Part shown: positions 1,476 to 14,915 of the stretch, piece by piece
Layout: each line of letters opens with the position of its first letter
Numbering within the stretch: the first letter of the stretch is position 1
Assembly (NCBI RefSeq): GCF_008973825.1
Contig: NZ_WCHR01000012.1
Location: 124,001 to 188,000 of the forward strand
From: Gemmobacter serpentinus
GTDB taxonomy: Bacteria > Pseudomonadota > Alphaproteobacteria > Rhodobacterales > Rhodobacteraceae
DNA: 64,000 nt
Direction of reading: 5' to 3'
Notes under the pieces: model-generated
Seen by the model: only the letters and a program-made list of their open reading frames with translations
What the model was told of the DNA's origin: nothing
The model's database searches: none
Made by a program: the position numbers and the translations under genes

Positions 1476-2813
1476 TCACCGGGCAGGGGGGACGGTTCTG
1501 GCGGAGGCCGAAACCAGTTGCAAGCTTTGCGAGAGGCGGGCTGCGCGGTGAGGGTTCAGCTGGGCCAACCAGGCGATGCGCCCGGACAGGTGGCCCAGAA
1601 AGGCCATATCTTGGCGGCGTGGATCGTCAGGCTGCTGCAGGCGGTGCAGGATGGCCTTCAGCCGATCATATTCGACGCGGGGAAGATTGGTGTGATGGTT
1701 CACCAAGATCCCGGTGACTTTCTGTTGCTGATGGGATGGCATCACCCTGGTCTTGCGGTGATTGGGGCGAAACCCCTCCTCTGCGCAGATCTCGGGCACT
1801 GCGCGCAAAAGGATCGGTGCGATCCGTGCGTCGCCGGAAAAGCTCAGATCATCGGCATAGCGGCTGTATTGCGCATCAAGGCTGCGGGCGAGTGCGGCCA
1901 GCCTGCAATCCAGCCGGAAGGCCAGCAGATTGGCCAAGGCGGGCGAGGTTGGCGCGCCCTGCGGCAGATGGCGGGCGTGCAGTCTGCCGGTCAAGGTGGG
2001 GTCATGGCCCAGCAGATACCGGCGCGGTGTCAATGCGCTGCACAGGCCCGCAAGATCGCGCGCCGTCGCTGCGGGATAACCCAGGCTACGGAACAGCCCA
2101 TATACCCGCGCCACATCAAGGCCCGGAAAGAAATCCGTCAGATCGAAACCCAGAACCACCCGTTCGCCCGCATGGCGCGCGGCCGCCTGCACGCAATTGC
2201 GGCCCCGGCGAAAGCCGAAGGCGGCATGATGGGGCGGCACATGGTCGAGAATGCCGCGCAGGATGCGGCGTTGCAGGGTCTTGAGAAAGGGGCGCGGTGC
2301 CTCGATCAGGCGGTGGCCGCCGTTGCGTTTGGGCCGCAGGTGGCACAGGTAATGAGGCCCGAACGGATCTGTGCTGTGGGCCGACAGGCCGCGCAGATCG
2401 GCAAAGCGGATTAGCTGTTCGGGTGTGATGGCCAGAAAATCTGCCAGATCCCCCGGCGTGGCAAGTTTGGGCAGATCAAGCCTGTCGAGTGCGGATACCG
2501 GGCGAAACCGGGGGGGATCCAGCACCGGCGCGGGCAGGCTGTCCGTTCGCCTCGCGTGGTCGCGCAGCCTTGCGCTGATGGAAAGGTCCTGCAACATCCT
2601 GCGCAATCGGCCCACATCCGGGGCGCTGCCGCCCGGAAAGGCCTGGATCAGGCGCCCTGCGACACGGCCTGCCTGATTGCGCATCCGCACGGGCAGGCGT
2701 TGCAGCAGCACCTGTTTCAGACTGGCCTCCTTCCATTCAGCCTGCACAAGGCTGCTGGCGATCGGGCCAAGCACCGCCAGACTGACAACCGGGCGATTGA
2801 AAGCGGGGGGCAA
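1476..2813 (-). CDS. Retron-type reverse transcriptase
   Basis: RNA-directed DNA polymerase of about 445 residues. An N-terminal extension of about 115 residues without a recognisable domain precedes the RT fold. Seen in order: HRLIEAPRP and GFRRGR (early finger motifs), AAARH (variant of the retron NAxxH motif, Asn replaced by Ala), FDLTDFFPGL with the first catalytic Asp, LPQGAPTSPALANL, the catalytic RYADDLSFSG, and VTGILVN carrying the VTG triplet typical of retron RTs. No maturase X, endonuclease or integrase domain is present, so this is not a group II intron or transposon RT. The apparent start is TTG at 2813, eleven bases after GAGAGG; GTG codons at residues 14 and 35 are alternatives (AAGGAGG lies 14 bases before the latter). 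Directly upstream is a structured region fitting msr-msd. Neighbours are a GNAT gene upstream and ettA downstream, neither an obvious retron effector. Confidence 0.87.
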   Translation of the reverse strand: MPPAFNRPVVSLAVLGPIASSLVQAEWKEASLKQVLLQRLPVRMRNQAGRVAGRLIQAFPGGSAPDVGRLRRMLQDLSISARLRDHARRTDSLPAPVLDPPRFRPVSALDRLDLPKLATPGDLADFLAITPEQLIRFADLRGLSAHSTDPFGPHYLCHLRPKRNGGHRLIEAPRPFLKTLQRRILRGILDHVPPHHAAFGFRRGRNCVQAAARHAGERVVLGFDLTDFFPGLDVARVYGLFRSLGYPAATARDLAGLCSALTPRRYLLGHDPTLTGRLHARHLPQGAPTSPALANLLAFRLDCRLAALARSLDAQYSRYADDLSFSGDARIAPILLRAVPEICAEEGFRPNHRKTRVMPSHQQQKVTGILVNHHTNLPRVEYDRLKAILHRLQQPDDPRRQDMAFLGHLSGRIAWLAQLNPHRAARLSQSLQLVSASARTVPPAR

Positions 2814-2952
2814 AGGCGGTCCAACCTCTCTGGTCCTGCAAGGACTGACCCGGGCAGAGCCCGGCGCCGTCCTTGCGTCGAATGTCTGGCGTTGCGTTTT
2901 TCGGGTGGGGAAGCCCCACCCCTCCGGTTGCCCGGCGCTTGGCCGCCTTTGC
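2810..2952 (-). ncRNA. Candidate retron msr-msd RNA
   Basis: Read on the minus strand, the 5' arm GCAAAGGCGGCCAA (2952-2939) pairs with 2810-2824 over 14 bp with a single bulged A, like the a1/a2 repeats that close retron RNAs. The base right after the 5' arm is an unpaired G (2938) in the context AAGC, matching the usual 2'-5' priming guanosine. Then follow a short stem CCGG-GCAA-CCGG (2935-2924), a perfect 8-bp stem GGGTGGGG with loop CTT (2921-2903), and a longer two-part hairpin at 2876-2838 (outer arms GCAAGGAC/GTCCTTGC, inner CCGGGC-TCT-GCCCGG). The long hairpin would be the msd part. No T-run follows the hairpins, arguing against terminators. The 3' arm overlaps the RT TTG start. This rests on structure only; no covariation was examined. 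Confidence 0.6.
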
Positions 2953-3001
2953 TGGTGTCAGCCTAATCAGCGCGGCGCAGGCCCGTCAACCTGCTGGCCC
3001 G

Positions 3002-3490
3002 TCAACCAGCCGGGACGAGTCGCTTCTCGAACCAGTGATCCGCATGAGGGTTGCTGTTATAGGCCGGGATCTCTTGCCAGCCATCGCGCAGATACAGCGC
3101 CTGCGCTTCGGGTAGGTGTCGGCTGGTATCGAGACGGAGGTGGGTCAGGCCCATTGCGCGCGCGGTGTCTTCAATGGTGGCCATCAGACGCCGGGCAAGC
3201 CCCTGGCCCCGCGCCTCGGGCGCGATCCACAGCCGCTTGATCTCGCCGCAGCCGGGGCCGATGCCTTCGGCCACGCTGCGCAACCCGACACAGCCCATGA
3301 TCCGGCCCGCCGCATCGCGCGCAAGCAGGAACTGCCCGCGCGGCGGGGCCATAGCCCCGGCATCCGGGTCGACGGGGCGGGGCGCGAAAACCTCGCCGAA
3401 GCGGGTGCTCAGCTCGGCGAAATAGGCCGCCATGCAGGCTTGTGCTTCAGGTGCGGTGACGGGGCAGGGGGCGAAGGTGATCTGGCTCAT
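3002..3490 (-). CDS. GNAT family N-acetyltransferase
   Basis: Cytoplasmic acyl-CoA N-acetyltransferase of about 162 residues; the substrate cannot be told. The central beta strand and acetyl-CoA loop are visible as IKRLWIAPEARGQGLARRLM (the RGQGLA pyrophosphate-binding loop), followed by the helix IEDTARAMG, then LRLDTSRHLPEAQALY and the C-terminal YNSNPHADHWFEKRL typical of small single-domain GNATs. The start is ambiguous: ATG at 3490 (MSQITF) and ATG at 3499 (MTCMSQ) are nine bases apart, and neither has a strong ribosome site. The stop lies 49 bp before the 5' arm of the retron RNA on the same strand, so the retron could be co-transcribed from this gene. A functional link to the retron is not supported. 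Confidence 0.85.
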   Translation of the reverse strand: MSQITFAPCPVTAPEAQACMAAYFAELSTRFGEVFAPRPVDPDAGAMAPPRGQFLLARDAAGRIMGCVGLRSVAEGIGPGCGEIKRLWIAPEARGQGLARRLMATIEDTARAMGLTHLRLDTSRHLPEAQALYLRDGWQEIPAYNSNPHADHWFEKRLVPAG

Positions 3491-4466: not shown

Positions 4467-6296
4467 TCAGTTCTGGGCCGGCACTTGCGCTGGGCGTGGT
4501 TGGGGCTTCAGATCAATCTGCTGCGGCGCGACCGATGGCGTTCCGTCCCAGGGTGAGGCCGGCGTCTGCACCGCAGGCGCGGCGGTGCCATCTGCGGGCA
4601 TAGCTGTCGCGCTGCTGCCATCTGAGGGCGGGGCAGATGGGGCGGTCACGAGGCCCGCGGTGGAGGCCCCGGCTGCCGGGTTACCGCCGGATGTTGTGGC
4701 CGCGCCGGAGTCTGGAGCGGGTTGGTCAGAAGCCGAGATATCGGCGGCCGAACTGTCTGCCGCTGGCGCGTCGGTTGTCGTGTCACTGGGCACAGGCGTG
4801 CTGGGCGCAGGTGTGTTGGCGGTCGGTGCGGTGGGGGCCTGTGCCTCTGCGGTCGGGGCATCTGCAGTGGCGGGGGGCGCAGGCACCAAACCCTCTGGCG
4901 GCACTTGGCCGGGGGCGACAAGAATACCGTTCAGCCATTGGCCCTCGGCCACCTCGCCCGAGGCATAGCGCAACCGCCCCATGCCCTCGCGCTTGCCCTT
5001 CACCACATCGCCTTCATAGACATCGCCATTGGCATAGGTGGCGATGCCCTTGCCAGTCATCTCGCCCGCCTGCCACTGGCCCTTGTAGCGGAAGCCGTCG
5101 GGCAGGGTGATCTCGCCCTCGCCCTGCCGCATCCCATCGACGAAATCGCCGCTATAGGTGGTGCCGCCCGGATAGGTGGCAACGGCCTTGCCGGTGCGCT
5201 TCCCGGCCTTCCACGCGCCCTCGTAGCGGAATCCGTCGGGCCGGGTCAGCGTGCCGATGCCATCGGCTTTTTCATTGGCGAACTGGCCCTCATAGACCGC
5301 GCCATCCTTGTAATTGGCGCGCCCCCGGCCCGCGATGGCACCCGCTGCCCATGTGCCCTCATAGCTGGACCCATCGCGGTAGGTGATCTTGCCCAGACCA
5401 TCGGGCTTGTCGGCCTTGAAGCTGCCTTGATAGCTGGAACCATCGGCATAGGCGAGGCGGCCTGTGCCCTCCATCTTGCCCGCCTTCCAGTCCCCCTCAT
5501 AGCGATAGCCGTCAGAGGTCGAGAAGATGCCGGTGCCCTCGCGCTGATCGGCGCGGAACTGGCCCTCATAGGTGGACCCGTCAGTGTAATGCATCTTGCC
5601 GCGGCCCTGGCGCTCACCCTCGACAAAGGCACCCTCATAAATGTCGCCGTTGGGCTGGGTCAGGGTTCCAAGGCCGTTGATCTGGCCCTTGGCCCAGTCA
5701 CCCTCGTAGATCAGGCCGTCGGGCATCGTCAGCTTGCCCTTGCCGTCGCGCATCCCCGCGACCATGGCACCCTCATAGGTGGTGCCATCGGGATAGCGCA
5801 TGATGCCCGCGCCCTGCTTGATGCCATCGACCCAATCGCCCTCATAGACGACACCGGCGGGCGAGGTCAGCTTGCCCTTGCCATGGTGGCGGGCATTGCG
5901 CAGCGGGCCTTCATAGACCGATCCATCGGCATAGCGCGCCACACCGCTGCCCTGGATCTGGCCGTCCAGCCAGTCGCCTTCAAAGGTGGAGCCGTCGGAA
6001 TAGGTGATCTTGCCCTTGCCTGTGGGTTTGCCACCCAGGAAATCGCCTTCATAGACCGATCCATCGGGATAGCGCGCGCGGCCAACCCCCTGGATCTGCC
6101 CCTCCACCCAGTCACCGCTATATTCATAGCCGTTGGGCAGGCGATAGGTGCCCTTGCCATGCTGGCGACCACCGAGGAAGGTGCCCTCATAGACCGATCC
6201 GTCATCATATTGCTTGACCAGCACATCGCTCAGCACTTGCGCATGGGCCATGCCTGCGGTCAGTGCGATAAGCGAAAAACCGATTGCCAGGCGCAT
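4467..6296 (-). CDS. Exported MORN-repeat protein
   Basis: A 609-residue protein with a signal peptide (MRLAIGFSLIALTAGMAHAQ), then about 19 consecutive 23-residue MORN units (consensus YEGDWxxGxxxGxGxxxYxDG, residues about 30-465), then about 140 residues of low-complexity Ala/Pro/Thr/Ser/Asp sequence. MORN arrays form elongated beta-hairpin rods and have been linked to lipid or protein binding; no enzymatic domain is seen here. Neighbouring units alternate in type (YEGDW then YEGxF), suggesting growth by duplication of pairs. The start at 6296 is chosen because AAGGAG lies seven bases upstream and it begins a clean signal peptide; a longer reading frame extends upstream without support. It is divergent from nadE. 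Location is likely periplasm or outer surface. Confidence 0.85.
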   Translation of the reverse strand: MRLAIGFSLIALTAGMAHAQVLSDVLVKQYDDGSVYEGTFLGGRQHGKGTYRLPNGYEYSGDWVEGQIQGVGRARYPDGSVYEGDFLGGKPTGKGKITYSDGSTFEGDWLDGQIQGSGVARYADGSVYEGPLRNARHHGKGKLTSPAGVVYEGDWVDGIKQGAGIMRYPDGTTYEGAMVAGMRDGKGKLTMPDGLIYEGDWAKGQINGLGTLTQPNGDIYEGAFVEGERQGRGKMHYTDGSTYEGQFRADQREGTGIFSTSDGYRYEGDWKAGKMEGTGRLAYADGSSYQGSFKADKPDGLGKITYRDGSSYEGTWAAGAIAGRGRANYKDGAVYEGQFANEKADGIGTLTRPDGFRYEGAWKAGKRTGKAVATYPGGTTYSGDFVDGMRQGEGEITLPDGFRYKGQWQAGEMTGKGIATYANGDVYEGDVVKGKREGMGRLRYASGEVAEGQWLNGILVAPGQVPPEGLVPAPPATADAPTAEAQAPTAPTANTPAPSTPVPSDTTTDAPAADSSAADISASDQPAPDSGAATTSGGNPAAGASTAGLVTAPSAPPSDGSSATAMPADGTAAPAVQTPASPWDGTPSVAPQQIDLKPQPRPAQVPAQN

Positions 6297-6411
6297 GACG
6301 GACTCCTTCTGACTTGCCGTCTTTTCCTTGGCGGTCAGTCTGCTAGAAAGCAAGTCAATTCCTCGGAAATGCGCGACCGCCCGCGCACCCGCAATCCCCG
6401 GAGAGCCCGCC

Positions 6412-8070
6412 ATGGCCGACACCTTTCGCCTGACGCTTGCGCAGCTGAACCCCGTGACCGGCGATATTGCGGGCAATGCGGCACAAGCCCGCGCCGCATG
6501 GGAAGCCGCGAAGGCCGCAGGCGCCGATATGCTGGCGCTGACCGAGATGTTCATCACCGGATATCAGACGCAGGACCTGATCCTGAAACCGGCCTTTGAG
6601 GCGGCGGCAGAGGCCGCGATCGCGCAACTGGCACAGGATTGCGCCGATGGTCCGGCGATCGGCATCGGTGGCCCGGCCCGCATCGACGGACGGCTGCACA
6701 ATGCCTTCTGGGTGCTGGAGCGCGGCAAGGTGGTGGCGCGGGTGCTGAAACACCATCTGCCCAATACCGATGTCTTTGACGAGAAAAGGGTTTTTGAACC
6801 CGCTGATGTGTCCGGTCCCTACCGGATCGGGCCTTTGCGCATCGGCACCCCGATCTGTGAGGACGCCTGGCACCCCGATGTGGCCGAAACCCTGGCCGAG
6901 ACCGGGGCCGAAATCCTGCTGGTGCCCAATGGCTCGCCCTATCATCGCGGCAAGCCCGATCTGCGCTTGAACCTGATGGTGTCGCGCGTGGTCGAGACCG
7001 GGCTGCCGCTGGTCTATCTGAATATGGTGGGCGGGCAGGACGATCAGGTGTTTGACGGATCGTCGATGGTGTTGAACCCGGGCGGCGATCTGGCGGTGCA
7101 ACTGCCGCAATTCGACGCCTGTCTGGAACATGTCGATTTCCTGAAAACCCCGGAAGGCTGGCGCGCCCAGCCCGGCACGATGGCCGAGATTCCCCGCGTC
7201 TGGGAAGCCGACTATCGCGCCTGCGTCATGGCTTTGGCCGATTACATGGGCAAGACCGGCTTTTCCAAGGTGGTGCTGGGCCTGTCGGGCGGGGTGGATT
7301 CGGCGTTGGTGGCTGCGATTGCCGCCGATGCCCTGGGCCCGCAAAATGTGCGCTGCGTCATGCTGCCCTCGGCCTATACCTCGGAGCATTCGCTGGAGGA
7401 TGCGGGCGAATGCGCGCGGCTGCTGGGCTGTCGTCTGGATACGGTGCCGATTTCCGGTCCGCAGGGCGCGGTCGGCGATGCGCTGGCGGATCTGTTTGCG
7501 GGCACCGAACCGGGCGTCACCGAAGAGAATATCCAGAGCCGGTTGCGCGGCGTCATCCTTATGGCGATTTCCAACAAGTTCGGCGAGATGCTGCTGACCA
7601 CCGGCAACAAGTCCGAGGTGGCGGTTGGCTATTGCACGATTTATGGCGATATGAATGGCGGATATAACCCGCTGAAAGACATGTATAAAACCCGTGTCTT
7701 CGAGACCTGCCGCTGGCGCAATGAAAACCATCGCGACTGGATGCTGGGGCCGGGCGGTGTGGTGATCCCTGACCGGATCATCACCAAGCCACCAAGCGCG
7801 GAGCTGCGCCCGGATCAAAAGGATCAGGACAGCCTTCCGCCCTATGAGGTGCTGGACGCCATCCTTGAAGGGCTGGTGGATCGTGAACAGTCGGTTGCCG
7901 ATCTGGTGGCGCAGGGCTTTGATCGTGCCACGGTCAAGCGGGTGGAGCATCTGCTTTACATCAGCGAATACAAACGCTTCCAGTCCGCGCCGGGTGTGCG
8001 GCTGACGCCCAAGGCCTTTTGGCTGGATCGCCGCTACCCCATCGCCAATCGCTGGCGCGACCCTTCGTGA
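6412..8070 (+). CDS. nadE: Glutamine-dependent NAD+ synthase
   Basis: Amidates deamido-NAD to NAD using glutamine. The 552-residue protein has an N-terminal nitrilase-type glutaminase domain (residues about 5-250) with the Glu-Lys-Cys triad visible in [18 protein letters not shown] and [14 protein letters not shown]-terminal ATP-pyrophosphatase-type synthetase domain follows, with the P-loop [14 protein letters not shown] near residue 290 and the [11 protein letters not shown] segment. The start at 6412 follows GGAG; an upstream extension of the frame has no ribosome site. The stop overlaps the start of a small YnfA-like membrane gene by four bases (GTGA), so the two are translationally coupled. 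Confidence 0.96.
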
Positions 8071-8493: not shown

Positions 8494-9192
8494 TCAGGCG
8501 GTCCGCAGAAGGCAGCGGCGCAGGAAGTTTGCGGTGACCGCGGCGGTGCGGGTATCGAACCAATGGCCAAGGCCCTGCCAAAGATGCAGGTCGCAGACAT
8601 GGCCTTGGGATTGCCAATGAGCCATGGCCTTGATCGCATCGCTTGCGGGGATCACCGGGTCATCGCGGCCATGCGACAGCATCACCGGCACCTGATGGGC
8701 GGCGACCGGGCCGCATTTCACCAGTCGCCCCGAAAGCGCGGCCAACCCCGCCACCGGCCAGCGGCCCGACATGACCGCATCGGTCGCCATGATCGCGCCT
8801 TGCGAAAAGCCGACCAAGGCCACGCGGTTCAGCCGGTCTGCAAAACCCGCCGCCGCGATCTCGCGCGCCAGCACGGCATCGAACCCGGCCCGTGCCGCGC
8901 GTAGTCGGGCGGGGCGGTTGCGCGGCGAGATATCCTTCACGCTGAACCACTGCCGGCCGGTATCATCCCAGTCGTAGCGCAAAGGCGCATCCGGGCAGAT
9001 CAGACGCGCGCCGGGCAGGGATGGGGCGATCATCTCGGCCAGCGCCTCCAGATGCGCGCCGCGCCCGCCCACGCCATGCAGGACAAGATGCGCGCCGCGC
9101 CCGCCCACGCCATGCAGGACAAGATGCGCGCCGCGCCCGCCCACGCCATGCAGGACAAGGATCAGGCTATCGGTAAAGTCGGTCTCGGGCAT
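8494..9192 (-). CDS. Alpha/beta hydrolase (phospholipase/carboxylesterase family) with internal triplication
   Basis: A 232-residue cytoplasmic serine hydrolase of the phospholipase/carboxylesterase (YpfH-like) group. The nucleophile elbow is GFSQG, the acid lies in SHGRDDPVIP, and the histidine in GLGHWFD near the C-terminus; WFSVKDISPRNR is a family marker. Near the N-terminus, the strand plus oxyanion-hole segment LVLHGVGGRGAH appears three times in succession, where the family has one copy, adding 24 residues. The start at 9192 (MPETDFTDSL) gives a normal N-terminus; AGGAA lies some 12 bases upstream. The stop is a TGA followed in the same frame by 32 further sense codons. Confidence 0.85.
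   Translation of the reverse strand: MPETDFTDSLILVLHGVGGRGAHLVLHGVGGRGAHLVLHGVGGRGAHLEALAEMIAPSLPGARLICPDAPLRYDWDDTGRQWFSVKDISPRNRPARLRAARAGFDAVLAREIAAAGFADRLNRVALVGFSQGAIMATDAVMSGRWPVAGLAALSGRLVKCGPVAAHQVPVMLSHGRDDPVIPASDAIKAMAHWQSQGHVCDLHLWQGLGHWFDTRTAAVTANFLRRCLLRTA
9051..9158. repeat. Perfect 36-bp tandem triplication inside a hydrolase gene
   Basis: Three head-to-tail identical copies of a 36-bp unit lie at 9051-9086, 9087-9122 and 9123-9158, with no mismatch among them. Each encodes 12 residues (LVLHGVGGRGAH on the minus strand), so the frame is kept. Perfect identity implies a very recent slippage or recombination event, or an assembly or polymerase artefact. The unit begins and ends within the oxyanion-hole region of the esterase. 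Confidence 0.95.
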
Positions 9193-9412
9193 TGCGGGGT
9201 CTTCATTCCTGCGAGGTCTGGTTCGTGCAAAGGTCGATTTCGGTGCGGCCCTATTCTTCAAGATCTGGCTTTCGCGGGCCAATTCGTCGCGCGCCCGAAT
9301 GCGGGTGCACCGGATGATGACGCGCCGTCTTTGGCAGGCAGATCCGCACGACCATGGCAGCACCCTTGGCGCGGGGCAAGCGGGGCGGGCCAGCCTTGCG
9401 CTCGCCTTCGCC

Positions 9413-9467
9413 CCATTGTGCGCTGGTGCACAATGGCCCGGCTGCATTACCGAATGGAACCGTTCCA
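9413..9467. promoter_or_regulatory. Two operator-like palindromes upstream of wrbA
   Basis: In the 344-bp gap between the hydrolase and wrbA there is a perfect 9-bp inverted repeat, CCATTGTGC and GCACAATGG, separated by six bases (9413-9436). It is followed by TGGAA-CCG-TTCCA (9455-9467). Both lie 70-125 bp before the wrbA start, where a transcription factor dimer would act. The regulator is unknown. Nothing else was recognised in the gap. Confidence 0.5.
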
Positions 9468-14748: not shown

Positions 14749-14915
14749 CCCGATCTGGTCAGGATCGGGAGAATCCGGCAGCGGGCCAATGGCCCGTGCA
14801 GCCGGTGCCGAAGGAGCAACCGCCCCGGTAAACTCTCAGGCGAACGGACCGTTCTGGCACCAAAACTCTGGAGAGTGGCGCTTTGCGCCCGCCGAAGGGA
14901 TAACGATCTCAGGCG
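14749..14915 (+). promoter_or_regulatory. Tandem glycine riboswitch
   Basis: The 336-bp leader of gcvT holds two consecutive glycine aptamers. The first contains CGGGAGA near 14766 and ends in CTCTCAGGC at 14841. The second begins GAACGGACC at 14842, contains CTGGAGAGTGGCGC and CCGAAGGGATAACG, and ends in ATCTCAGGC at 14914. The paired GGAGAG / CCGAAGGG / CTCAGGC blocks are the conserved core of this class. A short stem CCCGATC/GATCGGG (14749-14769) precedes aptamer 1 and may form the leader part of the P0 helix. Glycine binding is known to switch on glycine cleavage genes, and the downstream operon is gcvT-gcvH-gcvP. Confidence 0.9.

Follow-up and report, generated by a model that had tools for sequence, protein, structure and literature searches.

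The window, a stretch of 64,000 nucleotides from Gemmobacter serpentinus, carries on its minus strand what is, with a probability of roughly 0.85, a complete and intact chromosomal retron consisting of a non-coding RNA (ncRNA) and a reverse transcriptase (RT) only, without a recognisably linked effector. The retron itself is real and well supported, and its RT falls into a catalogued group. A first-pass annotation of this DNA had already proposed a retron here, a reading that RT phylogeny, homologs with their upstream sequence and covariation all support; the absent linked effector, the common site between nadD and ettA, the empty sites of congeners and a promoter-like box are new. The features, in window coordinates, are as follows.

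1476..2813, minus strand: retron-type RT, 445 aa, TTG start as called; RVT_1 match, E 5.5e-20
2514..2813, minus strand: N-terminal RT extension of ~100 aa, a predicted five-helix bundle
2810..2952, minus strand: msr-msd-like ncRNA, 143 nt, directly upstream of the RT, from fold and covariation
2810..2824, minus strand: a2, 3′ arm of the closing repeat, containing one bulged A and overlapped at its end by the RT start codon TTG
2838..2876, minus strand: two-part hairpin of the msd, from which the predicted DNA hairpin would be copied; from fold and covariation
2879..2884, minus strand: CATTCG before the msd hairpin, predicted end region of reverse transcription by analogy with known retrons
2903..2921, minus strand: msr stem-loop 2, the most conserved element, with four G-C pairs unchanged in 17/17
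2924..2935, minus strand: msr stem-loop 1, CCGG-GCAA-CCGG in the window, from a single fold
2938, minus strand: predicted priming (branch) guanosine, first base behind a1, its role assigned from known retrons
2939..2952, minus strand: a1, 5′ arm of the closing inverted repeat
2960..2989, minus strand: promoter-like TTGACG-N18-TAGGCT, upstream of a1

The RT frame is open and intact, with GTG codons farther inside it as alternative starts, and the motifs VTG, AAARH, QGAPTSP and YADD that had been ascribed to it can all be read in the 1476..2813 translation. We compared 17 homologs, the window's included, comprising 15 from a draw on the family, the congener L007 and a Frigidibacter sequence (L002); ‘family’ and ‘class’ are throughout those of the window's genome. 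All 17 RT frames are open, A211 and H214 of the region X AxxH and G368 of the region Y VTG are invariant, V366 and T367 are conserved at 90% or more, and YADD is found in 16, L019 having YVDD. In-frame stops in some relatives were considered and rejected, being the normal ends of intact frames. The window RT lacks the Asn of NAxxH (AAARH), which is no obstacle to the retron reading because Ec48 and Mx65 are substituted at this position, according to the accessible part of PMC6868368, and because the portion of PMC4244168 at hand gives a conservation of 62% for the Asn and 100% for the His. Between the window RT and that of the congener, codon positions 1, 2 and 3 differ at 0.25, 0.26 and 0.49 (437 codons), the third most of all.

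An AlphaFold2 model of the RT, built from 20 sequences with a mean pLDDT of 84.6, matches retron RTs in rows 1–18 of the PDB fold search, led by Ec86 (E 3.5e-22), and RTs of group II introns and of DRT systems rank lower; the PDB sequence matches start with the Ec86, Ec67 and Ec78 RTs. The N-terminal domain of the window RT has no Pfam match, and its best PDB fold match stands at E 1.5 for a model from two sequences (pLDDT 71.7), while the corresponding domain of L002 gives two insignificant Pfam matches (E 0.21 and 0.33). The idea that this domain is itself the effector was rejected, since it has neither a Pfam match in the window nor a significant PDB fold.

Among the PADLOC profiles, the window RT is matched by RT_other (PDLC02949) at 3e-128, RT_outgroup (PDLC03740, labelled retron) at 5.1e-121 and RT_XIII at 8.8e-95, in this order; the first two cover nearly the whole protein, and each of the three matches 17/17 members, the ranking being known for the window RT only. 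The earlier statement that the family cannot be assigned to a described retron type can therefore be improved upon, RT_other and RT_outgroup being the best profiles and matching every member. Retron models of NCBIfam match the window RT below their cut-offs. Membership of type XIII is not what we find, with RT_XIII only the third-best profile and the type XIII-like RTs in a separate clade.

Within the genus, two of 11 genomes, the window's own included, carry the RT over most of its length, and a third match is a remote RT (27%). Some RT match occurs in 63 of 394 family genomes (at most four candidates scored per genome) and a near full-length one at E <1e-100 in 15, again counting the window's; a further member, matched in G089 at the N-terminus only, is a gene truncated by a contig end, with the RNA present. 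Across 385 genomes of the class, near full-length profile matches are confined to G640 and the window's own genome, and the nearest named relative is Frigidibacter, listed under Paracoccaceae. Viral contigs hold 195 RT relatives, and among the best 80 of the 195 none matches the first 70 residues of the RT.

In a tree of 58 RTs (LG+G4; 17 rows with deviating composition; L192 left out as too short; other rows chosen, for example 12 of 80 viral loci and six plasmid matches), the window RT lies inside a clade of 22 supported at 100/99, made up of the 17, G640, two Burkholderia RTs and those of Tsukamurella and Dietzia. This tree holds few named retrons, and it is by fold and sequence that the RT belongs to the retron lineage. 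The 17 form one subclade (99/98), within which the ten members that lie near nadD make up one clade (100/99) and the other seven another (96/87). Four type XIII-like RTs (L023–L025 and L163) form a clade apart from the window RT, and RT_XIII is the first PADLOC profile for all three of L023, L024 and L163. All four have hydrophobic C-terminal segments and long RNA hairpins within the ~300 nt upstream, and a stem-loop 2 like that of the window hints at related msr RNAs. Four Planctomycete loci (L003–L006, at ~4.4–6.2 kb within each) encode retron-type RTs of 493–534 aa with a long, different N-terminal region and 38–41% identity in the RT part. Titles and abstract starts on retrons and msDNA in Rhodobacter and Roseobacter, a set that does not cover Mestre et al. 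2020, include no paper on the window RT family; the accessible parts of two papers describe a Sulfitobacter retron with an NDT gene (PMC10221251) and a retron-like RT on a Paracoccus plasmid (PMC3832669).

The RNA was first described as a 143-nt stretch closed by a 14-bp repeat with one bulge and with a G behind the 5′ arm, and precisely this is found at 2952..2810 of the minus strand, where the arms GCAAAGGCGGCCAA (5′, followed by the G) and TTGGACCGCCTTTGC (3′ end) pair over 14 bp with one bulged A. Folded alone, the 143-nt RNA reaches -79.7 kcal/mol against -58.0 +/- 4.2 for 200 dinucleotide shuffles, none of which is as low (z -5.2), and the two short stem-loops and the two-part hairpin that had been reported inside it are all present in this single fold. 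The elements follow one another as a1, priming G, two short stem-loops, msd hairpin and a2, which is the order of retrons. Behind a1, CAAG or CAAAG is found in 10/10 members at the nadD site and is less regular in the other seven. In 13 of the 17, the RT start codon as picked is no more than 8 nt away from where a2 ends, a count biased toward a2 proximity by our taking the first start from 8 nt before the a2 end. Rfam has no match at the RNA, either at the gathering threshold on the window or in a permissive search of 2600–3100.

The same upstream layout recurs in 17/17 homologs. On a structure-blind MAFFT alignment of the 17 sequences, RNAalifold yields 29 pairs, 23 with changes on both sides; paired cells amount to 93.1% compared with 75.0% in shuffles (0/500 reach the observed value) and to 52.4 and 52.3% after sliding the partners by a single column, with covariation scoring 0.524 versus 0.169, all of these numbers being upper estimates because the consensus structure derives from the same alignment that is used for counting, the sequences are related while the shuffles ignore kinship, and the a1/a2 ends were set by eye, which favours helix 1. 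The msd helices are independent of the chosen a1/a2 ends, and of their 13 pairs 11 are changed on both sides, with 95.6 and 100% paired. Stem-loop 1 is absent from the 17-sequence consensus structure. The homologs' upstream regions thus give a co-varying consensus fold, and the recurrent layout, the both-side changes and the shuffles uphold the earlier judgement that a chance origin is unlikely.

An RNA model (R1) searched against the 11 genus genomes, with 150 candidates scored per genome, matches the two genomes that contributed to its training, G000 and G004, and leaves the remaining nine without a match; its matches lie beside the RT only. Outside the training set it scores 134.9 bits upstream of the L192 RT, which is truncated by a contig end, and 41.4 and 37.2 bits upstream of the Burkholderia pyrrocinia and B. 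arboris RTs. It gives no significant match at Planctomycetota and other RT loci and misses the G640, Tsukamurella and Dietzia relatives, in which the same element order is visible in single folds. Weak matches (17.6 and 16.1 bits) lie 120 and 156 nt upstream of two RT_XIII-type RTs whose stem-loop 2 resembles that of the window, and a common origin of the RNAs of these relatives and of the window retron is possible.

A TTGA[ACT] box occurs 25–60 nt upstream of a1 in 13 of the 17 sequences (resampled mean 1.8, maximum 7 in 2000), the pattern having been picked after the sequences were viewed, and suggests a promoter that would start the RNA near a1. Just upstream of the RNA, at window 2980–3007, lies the direct repeat GGTTGACGGGCC, with two TTGACG boxes 16 nt apart.

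Elsewhere in the window, a glycine riboswitch aptamer (RF00504, 57.5 bits) lies at 14756–14861, and a long open reading frame at 4467–6557 on the minus strand consists largely of YEGxxxxGxxxGxG repeats, which we take to be MORN-like. Inside a gene at 8494–9447 (minus strand), presumably hydrolase-like, three perfect head-to-tail copies of a 36-bp unit at 9050–9159 encode the peptide LVLHGVGGRGAH three times over; the triplication is either a recent expansion or an assembly artefact. A likeness between the 3′ end of some relatives' msd and this 36-bp repeat was judged by eye to be chance, the window msd differing there.

At the loci examined, neighbouring genes, defined by a simple rule as open reading frames of at least 90 aa, contain no recurrent partner. 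PADLOC gave 0 matches at E 0.01 on 20 neighbour proteins from nine loci, and of ten neighbours searched against Pfam six belong to ordinary enzyme, regulator, GNAT or DUF families, one is an integrase and three match nothing. The seven members outside the nadD site have no gene cluster common to more than two; the only cluster common to two (c7), presumably ABC-transporter-like ATPases, lies >3.6 kb from the RT. The annotated neighbours of the plasmid relatives in Burkholderia pyrrocinia, Tsukamurella and Dietzia include no common gene or named toxin. GNAT genes near several members were considered as partners and rejected, because four of nine retron-less congeners have a GNAT match in this position too. 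A small toxin would escape a count that starts at 90 aa; among open reading frames of at least that length at the linked loci, the linked or fused effector of a tripartite defence retron is missing, and we are confident that no effector is linked to the window retron.

Ten members, the window's among them, have nadD within ~1.3 kb of the RT, and in nine of these ettA lies on the other side within ~2.5 kb, once as a fragment that runs into a contig end; L012, the tenth, lacks ettA in its 19 kb. Neither gene occurs in the ~19-kb stretches around the seven other members, in the ~3.1 kb upstream of the truncated G089 gene or within 17 kb around the G640 member. All nine retron-less genus genomes have nadD. 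In eight of them ettA adjoins it and no RT match separates the two, and in the ninth a contig end interrupts the neighbourhood. When four empty sites with a GNAT match were compared with the window flanks, two aligned well, one partly and one poorly on the ettA side, and on the opposite flank alignment was limited to the end of the GNAT gene. The shared site, which recurs in several related genera, and the monophyly of its occupants point to one old insertion followed by inheritance and losses; members of the nadD-ettA group most likely go back to a long-standing resident of the site that is inherited and often lost. Pairwise RT distances correlate weakly with those of nadD (r 0.38, p 0.017, n 10; without the congener r 0.14, p 0.19), RT against ettA gives p 0.14 (n 8) and nadD against ettA p 0.33, and with correlations this weak, spread by recombination in the flanks is possible. 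Searches of 72,556 plasmid and 50,697 phage records returned none with a match spanning 80% of the RT at a single place; plasmids do carry four RTs of the wider clade, these plasmids being of 47 kb to 1.26 Mb and the RTs uncounted by the 80% rule because their N-termini do not align. A REP-associated-transposase-like protein lies beyond ettA at three of the ten nadD-site loci (8915–9406 in L002 and cluster c10 in L046 and L050), which we presume to be a REP-associated tyrosine transposase, and an integrase gene lies ~0.5 kb upstream in L056. The nadD-ettA region may be an insertion hot spot.

We propose the following mechanism, in which the anatomy and its conservation are observed here, and the biochemical steps (priming at the G, copying of the msd, RNA trimming and branched msDNA) follow known retrons as set out in the accessible part of PMC6868368. 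A promoter just upstream of a1 would give one transcript, in which a1 and a2 pair and G 2938 is presented as primer. The RT would bind the msr stem-loops, start a 2′-5′ branch at this G and copy the msd hairpin, stopping near CATTCG, to leave a branched RNA-DNA molecule with roughly 60–70 nt of DNA. That the retron makes msDNA is highly probable. Since we recognise no linked effector, the working model that we consider most likely is an RT-msDNA complex acting with a partner encoded elsewhere, for which the helical N-terminal domain would offer a likely contact surface; such an interface remains speculative, and we rate it somewhat below an even chance. The chances that the main role is phage defence are about even.

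It is very improbable that the RNA instead regulates the RT gene in cis, as a leader or attenuator, with the RT using other templates in the manner of DRT or group II-like enzymes. Because the RT start codon overlaps a2, the fold could affect translation, and starts lie near a2 in most of the 17 sequences, subject to the biased pick described above; yet a leader would hardly account for arms, a G behind a1, msr loops and an msd hairpin in retron order, for RT sequence and fold matches that put retrons ahead of group II and DRT enzymes, or for an RNA model that in the genus matches beside the RT only. A decaying remnant that has lost msDNA production is the least probable account: a patchy distribution and a GC3 that is a little low (73.8 in the window RT, 76.1–83.0 in four nearby genes) would suit it, but all 17 frames are open, only L019 departs from YADD, and both arms of the RNA co-vary.

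Two further accounts concern function. One is an ordinary anti-phage retron that has been split from its toxin, the toxin gene now lying at another place in the genome; this is a serious contender that nonetheless falls short of even odds. Retrons are described as RT, ncRNA and effector in the accessible parts of PMC12548924 and PMC12262390, and a presence as patchy as 15 of 394 family genomes would suit a costly defence gene. On the other hand, neither the examined loci nor the three plasmid relatives show a recurrent or PADLOC-type neighbour, and re-joining of the pair would be expected in some lineages. The other is a retron domesticated for a function in the cell outside defence, for instance regulation by its msDNA, a possibility we regard as rather unlikely. 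The common site between housekeeping genes, the lack of a recognised effector and the plasmid and phage records without a match spanning 80% of the RT speak for it, as does a regulatory role claimed for a Salmonella msDNA in the available part of PMC4569332. Conversely, the element is missing from nine of 11 genus genomes and hence dispensable, and members occur elsewhere (seven of the 17, G640 and the four plasmid-borne RTs). Returning to the retron of ncRNA and RT only, we tentatively suggest, while thinking it unlikely, a two-part retron kind (RNA plus RT with a helical N-terminal domain) that has no dedicated toxin and extends over the window's class, Burkholderia and Actinomycetota, with the nadD-ettA form a long-term resident in one set of genera and the msDNA serving either the cell's own functions or defence of a new type.

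Retrons are now mostly seen as phage defences in which RT and msDNA restrain a toxin, while for the myxobacterial retrons, the first to be found, we know of no agreed function. Among the known systems nearest to it, RT_other and RT_outgroup are the top two profiles, matching the window RT over near full length, its N-terminal part included; these are bare model names, with no RNA, effector or site attached. Type XIII shares with the window the third-best profile, two relatives with a weak RNA-model match upstream and a similar stem-loop 2, and differs in longer RTs with other N-termini and hydrophobic C-termini in another clade. Ec86 and other solved retrons have the same RT fold (TM 0.81 by target length, 0.59 by query length), whereas the window RT has an extra N-terminal helical domain, and Ec86 was solved with a separate effector where the window has none recognised.

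A further comparison is with the myxobacterial retrons Mx162, Mx65, Sa163 and Ne144, whose RTs also carry an N-terminal extension and which, in Mx65, also lack the NAxxH Asn; their priming G lies in CAGC or GAGC rather than the AAGC of the window, and Mx162 has a much longer transcript (241 nt) and msd (162 nt), as far as the accessible part of PMC6868368 describes them. The same source holds Mx162 and Sa163 to be vertically inherited, and the nadD-ettA retrons resemble them by description rather than by sequence. What stands out is that a family without a recognisable linked effector also has a common chromosomal site. The window retron family looks comparable to the myxobacterial case; its members are intact, congeners that lack the retron can serve as natural controls, and its RNA model is supported by covariance, so that the role of a toxin-unlinked retron becomes directly testable; its RTs and compact RNAs are also candidates for the production of single-stranded DNA in related bacteria.
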